The notes beneath the pieces were generated by a model. The model ran no database searches, was not told where the DNA came from, and saw only the letters and a list, made by a program, of their open reading frames with translations. DNA of 64,000 nt, taken from the NCBI GenBank assembly GCA_964036665.1, contig OZ038527.1, forward strand, positions 27,129,901 through 27,193,900. The letters run 5' to 3'. The DNA is from Gordius sp. MW1. Lineage: Eukaryota > Nematomorpha > Gordioida > Gordea > Gordiidae. This document shows, one piece after another, positions 32,867 through 49,697 of the stretch (its first letter is position 1; each line of letters opens with the position of its first letter). Made by a program: the position numbers and the translations under genes.

Positions 32867-32926
32867 AAAATGTATCATTATAGGCATGTTCATAAAACTT
32901 TTAGCCCATCAAATCATAAACATTAA
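32867..32926 (-). promoter_or_regulatory. Candidate SECIS element
   Basis: On the minus strand, directly after the MSRB1 stop codon: AATGT, TT, ATGA, TTTGATGGGCT, AAAA, a loop, GCCTATAA, TGAT, ACATT. AATGT pairs with ACATT below the ATGA/TGAT quartet, ATGGGC pairs with GCCTAT above it, and the AA sits 11 nt after ATGA, the spacing expected in eukaryotic SECIS elements. ATGA begins about 73 nt after the Sec codon, which is short but plausible. Helix II is weaker than usual, with one mismatch. Confidence 0.65.
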
Positions 32927-32944
32927 TCATATTTTAATCAAGAA

Positions 32945-33519
32945 CTATTCTAGGTTATCATCTATGAATTTTAATGAATGACTAAAAATTCAAAATCTAG
33001 ATTTTCCATTAGGGCCATCTTTGATAAATTCATGACCAAGACCATTACCACATTTTCCACATGATACCTTGCAAAAAAATGGACTTAAACAATTATTAAC
33101 AATTTTTATATTATCTTATATTCTATCAAATATTATATTAAGCTAATCAAATCATTATTAGCTCTTCTCAAGTGATATACTTTAAATATAGTGGTTGATT
33201 CAGGTTGTTTTTGAACACTGTCTTCATGCAGAGTTTCAGTAAAGGCTGGCCAAGGTGAAGAATGTTTGTATTTTGATTTACTTGAAAATAATTCATATCC
33301 ACATTTTGAACAAGTGTAGATTCCTATAAAAAAAAATTATATGATGTGCAAAAAACTAAGGCTTGAGGGGGGATCGAACCCCCGATCTTTGGTTTACGAG
33401 ACCAACGCCTTACCACTTGGCCACCAAGCCTTATCGAAAATTGTTAAATTCTAAATATATTACTTACCTTGATTAAAACAATTTTTATATATTTCACCTC
33501 CCATAAATTGACAAAACAT
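32945..33519 (-). CDS. MSRB1: Methionine-R-sulfoxide reductase B1, selenoprotein
   Basis: Exons 33519-33468, 33323-33181 and 33067-32945 (phase 1, then phase 0) give 105 residues with selenocysteine at about position 91. It reduces methionine-R-sulfoxide in proteins using thioredoxin. The protein starts [15 protein letters not shown]. It keeps both zinc CxxC pairs ([11 protein letters not shown] and [13 protein letters not shown]), the substrate-site [10 protein letters not shown], and the catalytic segment [12 protein letters not shown]. The Sec codon is TGA at 32992-32990 and is followed by 14 conserved-type sense codons and a TAG (32947-32945), so TGA is read through rather than terminal. 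A SECIS candidate lies just downstream. If TGA were a stop the enzyme would lack its active residue. The length is slightly under the mammalian 116. A tRNA gene occupies intron 1. Confidence 0.93.
33359..33430 (-). tRNA. tRNA-Thr (CGT)
   Basis: 72-nt cloverleaf on the minus strand. Acceptor GGCTTGG pairs with TCAAGCC; D-arm contains TGGCCAAGTGG; anticodon stem TTGGT/ACCAA encloses the loop CTCGTAA (anticodon CGT); T-arm GGGGGTTCGAACCCCC. No variable-arm oddity or intron. A run of six T (33355-33350 on the transcribed strand) follows immediately, a normal Pol III terminator. Lies in intron 1 of MSRB1 on the same strand. Confidence 0.95.
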
Positions 33520-47709: not shown

Positions 47710-48949
47710 CTGCAATTCAAAATAAGCATATTATAACAATAAAAAACAAACAATAGAATCTATTATTAATAATAATTCTTTTTAAGTTTATAAGTAAGAT
47801 AGTGATTTAATAATTCTAAAAGCATTTATTTATGTTTATTTACCTATTGATATTTTTTAATTAAAGATATTTTGTAACTTTCAAGATTGTAAATTAGGGT
47901 TCACAGATGTTAAAAAATGATATCTATGAATGAATTCCACCTGATTTGTAAAAAAATTTAATTTCGCCAATTTTACATTTTTTTATTGACAAATTAAATT
48001 AATTTATTGAATTTCCATTTTAGCCTATTAATATAATTTATGACTTCATGATGGAACTTGAGTTTTGGCATAGACCTCAGTGTTTTCAATTTTTTAAAAA
48101 GATTAAAACTAGTCTGCCAAAAGAGTCAAAACAAGTAGCCACTAAAATGATTGAATAAATCAATCTTAAAAGTATGTAATGCCAAAACAAAACCCACTTT
48201 ATAATTAACGTGGCCATATGAGCTATTTGGTGTAAGAGTAGAATCAATGAATACTCTTTCTAAGCTCTTGGGCGTATTCAGGGCATAAATAATTACATTG
48301 CAAGATCATATTTGCATTTATCTAGTAATTAGCGCGCGCATGATGTAATTTAAAAATGCTGTTTTATTAAGCCAACAAAATAAATTTTAGCATTCTTATG
48401 GACTTGAGTATCTCAGATCTTTATAACTAAACAGCGTATTAATCGAGCTTATGATATTAACAATTACATTACCATAACCATAAGTATACCATTGGTGAAA
48501 AATTCCACATTTTTGCAAGGGCATCTCTTTGTTACAGTTGACTGTCTAAAACGATATAAATATTGGAATTAATATAAGGCAGCCAAATTAGTACAAAAAT
48601 TAAGATCCATATTAAAGGTTTTCAAATACAAATGTTTACCACCAACCCGAACCATTTTTTTAGTTTTGGCCATCTAAACTCACCACTCTTTATTCGACCC
48701 CGGCCCACCTTTTCTATTTTTGCATTTACTACTATCCGGCATGACTAAAAAAACTGTCCCAAAATTTATACAAAAATATATAATCTTTTAAGTGCATGTT
48801 AACATAACATATTTAATTATTAGAGGCCATTTATAATGTCGGGAATAAACCTTTTTTTTAAATCATTGTCTGAATAAATCTTGATATGTCAGGTACTAGG
48901 TGTGATCGGTGTGATGTCAGGGATTGGGTGTGATCGGTGTGATGGAATA
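47710..48949. other. Gene-free AT-rich region
   Basis: No exon or named element seen. Near 48892-48942 a 19-bp unit (GGTGTGATCGGTGTGATG) occurs twice, just before the rRNA fragment. Confidence 0.4.
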
Positions 48950-49500
48950 TTGATGCTCTTTACTGAGTGTCGTGAGTAGACCTAACTGTTACATTGAAAA
49001 AATTATAGTGCTCAAAGCAGGCTCGAAGCCTCAAATATTGATGCATGGAATAATGGAATAGGACCTCGGTTCTATTTTGTTGGTTTTCGGAAACCGAGGT
49101 GATTAAGAGGAAAGGACGGGGGCATCGGTACTGTGGCGCTAGAAGTGAAATTCTTGGACCGCCGTAAGACGAACGACTGCGAAAGCATTTGCCAAGAATG
49201 TTTTCATTAATCAAGAACGAAAGTCAGAGGTTCGAAGGCGATTAGATACCGCCATAGTTCTGACCATAAGCGATGACCGGTAATTTACTGTAAATCTTTT
49301 TACGACCCAGTAAGCGACCTCTGGAAAACCAAAGTTTTTGGGTTCCGGGAGAAGTATGGTTGCAAAATTGAAACTTAAGGAATTGACGGAAGGGCACCAT
49401 TAGGAGTTGAGCCTGGCTTAATTTGACTAAAAATGGGAAAACTCATCCGGCCAGGACACTGTAAGGATTGACAGATTGATAGCTCTTTCTCGATTCTGAG
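48950..49500 (+). pseudogene. Degraded internal fragment of 18S rRNA
   Basis: Matches the central part of nuclear small-subunit rRNA: GAAAAAATTATAGTGCTCAAAGC, GGTTCTATTTTGTTGGTTTT, AGTGAAATTCTTGGACC, GCATTTGCCAAGAATGTTTT, GAATTGACGGAAGGGCACCA and GACAGATTGATAGCTCTTTC are in the right order. Scattered substitutions and indels (for example a shortened segment around 49260-49320), and the lack of the first and last parts of the gene, show that it is a dispersed pseudogene copy and not part of an rDNA array. Confidence 0.9.
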
Positions 49501-49697
49501 CACGACAAAACGATAGGAATAAAAATAGAGGTTTCTGATAAAGCTGAATATTTTACAGATTTCCGATGCTCTACCGATCCTAAGGGGTCGTGAATATCGT
49601 TGGAGGGTGCAAACACGAGTGTTCCTAAGTCCGAATTAATCCCCTGAGATAATCCAAGACTTATCTTTATTCTAATAACCGTAATTGTGAAATACCA

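Follow-up and report, generated by a model that had tools for sequence, protein, structure and literature searches.

We find that a gene on the minus strand of a 64,000-nt stretch of DNA (the window) is very likely that of an animal methionine-R-sulfoxide reductase B1 (MSRB1, also called selenoprotein R), intact and split into three exons. An in-frame UGA in it would be read as selenocysteine (Sec), and a hairpin beyond the stop codon would serve as the SECIS. The window belongs to the 28.2-Mb contig C1; the genome, judged by its genes to be an animal's, measures 211.8 Mb in 12 contigs. The coding sequence of 318 nt is spread over three exons (33519-33468, 33323-33181 and 33067-32945) that splice together in frame; it runs from an ATG at 33519 to a TAG stop ending at 32945 and specifies a conceptual product of 105 residues. 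Both introns are of the GT...AG type, with lengths of 144 nt (intron 1) and 113 nt (intron 2). The sole internal stop of the frame is the TGA at 32992-32990, codon 91, after which 14 sense codons lead to the TAG. The original prediction had placed the TGA at these coordinates, and they held when re-checked. The features are as follows.

33468 to 33519, minus strand: MSRB1 exon 1, from the ATG to the donor GTAAGT; 17 codons and one base of codon 18; aligned to MsrB1 chains.
33324 to 33467, minus strand: MSRB1 intron 1, 144 nt, GT...AG, containing a tRNA gene.
33181 to 33323, minus strand: MSRB1 exon 2, carrying the first CxxC; aligned to MsrB1 chains.
33068 to 33180, minus strand: MSRB1 intron 2, 113 nt, GT...AG.
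32945 to 33067, minus strand: coding part of MSRB1 exon 3, with the second CxxC, the putative Sec codon and the TAG stop.
32990 to 32992, minus strand: in-frame TGA, codon 91, taken as Sec (the catalytic residue); it shares a column with the [C/S] of SRF[C/S]IFS in MsrB1 chains.
33358 to 33431, minus strand: tRNA-Thr (anticodon CGT), called by ARAGORN and matching the Rfam tRNA model with 67.6 bits; nested in intron 1.
32868 to 32924, minus strand: SECIS-like hairpin with lower stem, ATGA/TGAT core, helix II, AA run and mini-stem.

Performing family searches with the conceptual protein, in which Cys was put in place of Sec, we obtained a match to Pfam SelR (PF01641) with an E value of 3.5e-21 and 75.7 bits against a cut-off of 24.9. 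Four MsrB models of NCBIfam also matched, each under its whole-protein cut-off (TIGR00357, 73.9 versus 113.05), as did, weakly and again under the whole-protein cut-off, the model for archaeal transcription factor S. In a list of 21 solved chains, those of MsrB1 took the first two places (2kv1, E 3e-45; 3mao, E 2.1e-42) and the next chain followed at 2.7e-13; MsrB3 and MsrB2 chains gave 4.6e-12 and 1.1e-7, respectively. By sequence, the predicted protein is closer to MsrB1 than to the other MsrB types.

The alignment with 2kv1, which we take to be a mammalian chain, shows 70 identities in 100 aligned residues. Identity remains high on both sides of the TGA, with 20 of the 25 preceding columns (one of them a gap) and 7 of the 10 following ones identical, and the earlier claim that conserved sequence continues past the TGA is borne out. 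Two CxxC pairs (CSKC and CGKC), which bind zinc in MSRB1, are aligned and kept, and so is the N-terminal FC. The TGA itself aligns with the catalytic column, occupied by Cys in 2kv1 and by Ser in 3mao; these we assume to be engineered replacements of Sec, presumably the proper residue of the catalytic column in MsrB1. The proposal that the TGA sits at the Sec position of vertebrate MSRB1 is supported by its place in the MsrB1 chain alignment. Mammalian MSRB1 and the gene described here share the family, the catalytic column, the CxxC pairs, the N-terminal FC and the conserved tail. The family assignment, the TGA column, the conserved continuation, the GT/AG introns and the Sec machinery genes of this genome support a predicted MSRB1 selenoprotein.

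These data bear on two other ways of looking at the TGA. If the gene were a pseudogene, the TGA would be a nonsense mutation; the TGA itself, and nothing more, speaks for this. We see no frameshift, no other stop and intact splice borders, conservation is strong on either side of the TGA, and the SelR search of the genome gave four pieces at two loci, namely exon 2 of MSRB1 and one other MsrB locus (C3) of the Cys form with the catalytic motif RYCINSA. We regard a pseudogene as scarcely credible. It is also very improbable, though less so, that the ribosome inserts a standard amino acid at the TGA or stops there and leaves a truncated protein, with selenocysteine playing no part. UGA readthrough free of a SECIS has been proposed for insect SPS1-UGA, as the available part of PMC4561486 describes. 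Here, on the other hand, the TGA occupies the catalytic column of MsrB1, truncation at the TGA would cost the protein its catalytic residue, and the genome has tRNA-Sec, SepSecS, eEFSec and other genes with Sec-type TGA codons. An annotation that has no rule for selenocysteine would probably end MSRB1 before this residue.

Searching the genome for the Sec-decoding machinery, we find that 4 of the 16 listed tRNA-Sec matches lie above the Rfam cut-off; the 14 control genomes all give matches, 5 above the cut-off. ARAGORN called three of five tRNA-Sec loci as tRNA-SeC (TCA), left one uncalled and called one tRNA-Ser. The three tRNA-Sec(TCA) genes (L002, L003 and L004) lie on three separate contigs; animals often carry fewer than three such genes. 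SepSecS was found as five pieces on contig C8, one of them spanning stops (presumably an intron), with matches in 3 of the 14 control genomes. For eEFSec, domain III gave one match on C5 (E 4.9e-20), and none of the 14 control genomes matched. Three selD (SPS2) pieces on C4 (best E 6.5e-14, none of the three above the whole-protein cut-off) are unspecific and by themselves no evidence for Sec decoding, because all 14 control genomes match as well. By its predicted genes, the genome has the Sec-decoding set of tRNA-Sec, SepSecS and eEFSec.

Two further loci carry a TGA of the same kind. The GPx search gave four pieces at three loci, one of which shows a TGA (L015:1627) where the other two have Cys, as judged by eye. 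Rdx, a SelW-type family, gave two matches; by eye, one locus has a TGA before GYENKFKKLQ (L018, minus strand, position 1380 of the reverse complement) and the other has Cys there. For the SelW-like gene with the TGA, the Cys of the CxxU motif would fall in a separate exon. A SECIS candidate of the GPx gene (L015:2139) starts 23 nt past the presumed stop, and that of the SelW-like gene (L018), the best by energy of the six listed there, lies at a genomic distance of 328 nt past the TGA. Both have GGA as the 3' core and pass the loose core rule only; within the 1-2 kb scanned, no strict SECIS candidate was present at either locus. The rule ATGA/NGA at the energy of the GPx candidate is satisfied by 49 of 1784 background stretches, and since 1-2 kb were scanned at this background rate, the two candidates are suggestive only. 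Our first helix score picked other places at both loci, and the 3' flank of GPx gave no Rfam SECIS_1 match. By plain folding, the SelW-like candidate was no better than shuffled sequences, of which 143 of 200 folded as well, and the GPx candidate was little better (43 of 200).

The hairpin of MSRB1 spans 57 nt and begins 20 nt 3' of the TAG stop. Its lower stem pairs AATGT (32924-32920) with ACATT (32873-32869), and its core consists of ATGA (32917-32914) and TGAT (32877-32874). An AA run (32902-32899) follows 11 nt after the ATGA, helix II has six pairs (ATGGGC/GCCTAT), a small stem is also present, and bases beside the core are unpaired. The quartet, the 11-nt interval and the AATGT/ACATT stem are as first described, while the start given as 19 nt after the stop was off by one, our count being 20. 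The hairpin fits the eukaryotic SECIS pattern: it lies 3' of the stop and has a UGA/GA core, a helix II and an AA run at the expected 10-13 nt. With its mini-stem, we take it to be what is named SECIS form 2. It shares ATGA, the 11 nt, AA, the mini-stem, TGAT and the lower stem with eukaryotic mini-stem SECIS elements; unlike them, it scores below the SECIS_1 gathering score, has a helix II of six pairs and carries unpaired bases beside the core.

To judge how often such a hairpin arises, we used a strict rule: ATGA, AA 10-13 nt on, TGA, six or more pairs in helix II and the energy of the target. Six of 1784 stretches of 200 nt satisfied it, both strands being counted. The stretches came from the window minus the target and from 23 of 41 loci, some overlapping; the loci kept out of this background were 3 of the target, 3 of the TGA genes and 12 from contig ends. 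Dinucleotide shuffling of the 200-nt flank gave 1 success in 4000. An earlier and different helix score was less striking: it was reached by 72 of 5000 shuffles of the first 150 nt and, in real DNA, by 2 of 852 stretches from the window and 4 of 900 from the loci (6 of 1752 together). The hairpin occurs here beyond chance. Within about 2 kb downstream it is also the sole candidate to pass the motif-plus-fold filter, whether in its strict or in its loose form; a weaker motif at 32893, overlapping the hairpin, surfaced with the first helix score only.

Folding stability and the Rfam model are of little help. Because the Rfam SECIS_1 model (RF00031) aligned to the hairpin, in the right register, with 12.8 bits against a gathering score of 35, the hairpin is not assignable to RF00031 and is filed only as a putative element working like a SECIS. 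The SECIS_1 row at the hairpin was seventh by bits among eight rows, which is chance level. It was absent from the rows of a wider Rfam search of 1101 bases with E up to 1, and a whole-genome SECIS_1 search with E up to 10 gave no match. The SECIS_1 model is not useful for this gene. Unconstrained folding by methods that cannot model the non-standard core pairs gave z -0.13 in an 86-nt context (82 of 200 shuffles as stable); the 57-nt hairpin by itself had z -0.96, with 32 of 200 shuffles as stable. The best fold in the 86-nt context retains helix II and loses the lower stem and the core. When just the 57 nt are folded, some bases of the core pair up. Folding stability does not set the hairpin apart from shuffles.

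One may ask, then, whether the gene is a true selenoprotein whose hairpin is a chance match, the real SECIS lying elsewhere in the 3' UTR or being non-standard. The Rfam score under the cut-off, the ordinary fold energy and an AT-rich flank that yields such motifs at times (at the strict-rule and first-score frequencies given above) are what this would lead one to expect. It sits poorly with a candidate that lies within the first 80 nt past the stop and has no competitor at either filter over the 2 kb downstream, and we hold it to be unlikely. Judged by motif, fold, position and context, the hairpin is in all likelihood the SECIS, a reading in which we have good confidence.

From the sequence we infer Sec insertion, a function for the hairpin and enzyme activity. 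With the hairpin as SECIS, the UGA at 32992-32990 would be decoded as selenocysteine by tRNA-Sec delivered by eEFSec, and the hairpin 20 nt past the TAG would recruit a SECIS-binding protein. In the product, Sec would attack methionine-R-sulfoxide and reduce it, and the two CxxC pairs would hold a zinc, as is known for the MSRB1 enzyme.

The gene is of a known kind, and the short UGA-to-SECIS spacing is its one quantitative point of interest. From the TGA to the ATGA we count 72 nt, and from the TGA to the lower stem 65 nt. The original prediction had given about 73 nt to the core; that number shifts by one, and its placement near the short end stands, the minimum spacing being 51-111 nt as cited from a Dio1 study in the available part of PMC3316567. 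The same text gives 207-5207 nt for mammalian selenoproteins, against 72 nt from UGA to core here. In the part of PMC3737529 at hand, 51 nt is cited as the minimum and at least 200 nt is said to have been held optimal, and the thioredoxin reductases eTR1 and eTR2 of Euplotes crassus have 138 nt and 124 nt, figures which that paper measures from the stop codon and treats as UGA-to-SECIS distances. These are also short-spaced, whereas the present case is an animal gene with 72 nt. The spacing is short, yet within the range reported as possible.

No natural spacing under 72 nt came up in the portion of the literature available to us, and we claim no record. We suggest only tentatively, with more doubt than conviction, that this is a naturally used animal SECIS which, at 72 nt from the UGA, is among the closest of any eukaryote. 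If so, a ribosome that terminates at the TAG would abut the hairpin or sit on it, the hairpin's base being 20 nt away, and the gene would be nature's own trial of how short this distance can become with the SECIS still serving repeated rounds of translation. It would also be a natural example within the 51-111 nt window cited from the Dio1 study (PMC3316567, as far as available).

Among animals, PMC3473315 counts SelR as a selenoprotein for all 6 of 6 marine invertebrates, from sponge to amphioxus; the present gene is likened to these by that listing, and it fits the picture of a Sec-form SelR widespread in animals. For flatworms, the part of PMC3828610 available reports Cys forms of SelR only. 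As to exons, we find three coding ones and a tRNA gene in intron 1, while human MSRB1 has four exons according to the part seen of PMC2901347.

The nested tRNA-Thr (CGT), which has the orientation of MSRB1, takes up 74 nt of the 144-nt intron 1, and a T6 run lies close behind it. Its DNA was the only match listed in a genome search that scores the best candidates only. We regard the nested gene as a curiosity, because C. elegans commonly has its tRNA genes inside introns (44% of 609, PMC4999229). Elsewhere in the window, 48840-49347 and 49415-49574 on the plus strand match eukaryotic small-subunit rRNA, the first piece with 259.2 bits and the second with 57.5; contig C1 seems to carry a fragment of rRNA here. 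Examining 12 of the 24 contig ends, we found TTAGGG or its complement at 10, which argues against an arthropod whose chromosomes end in TTAGG; TTAGG repeats, searched as a 25-base pattern, occurred in two places only, both inside contig C6.
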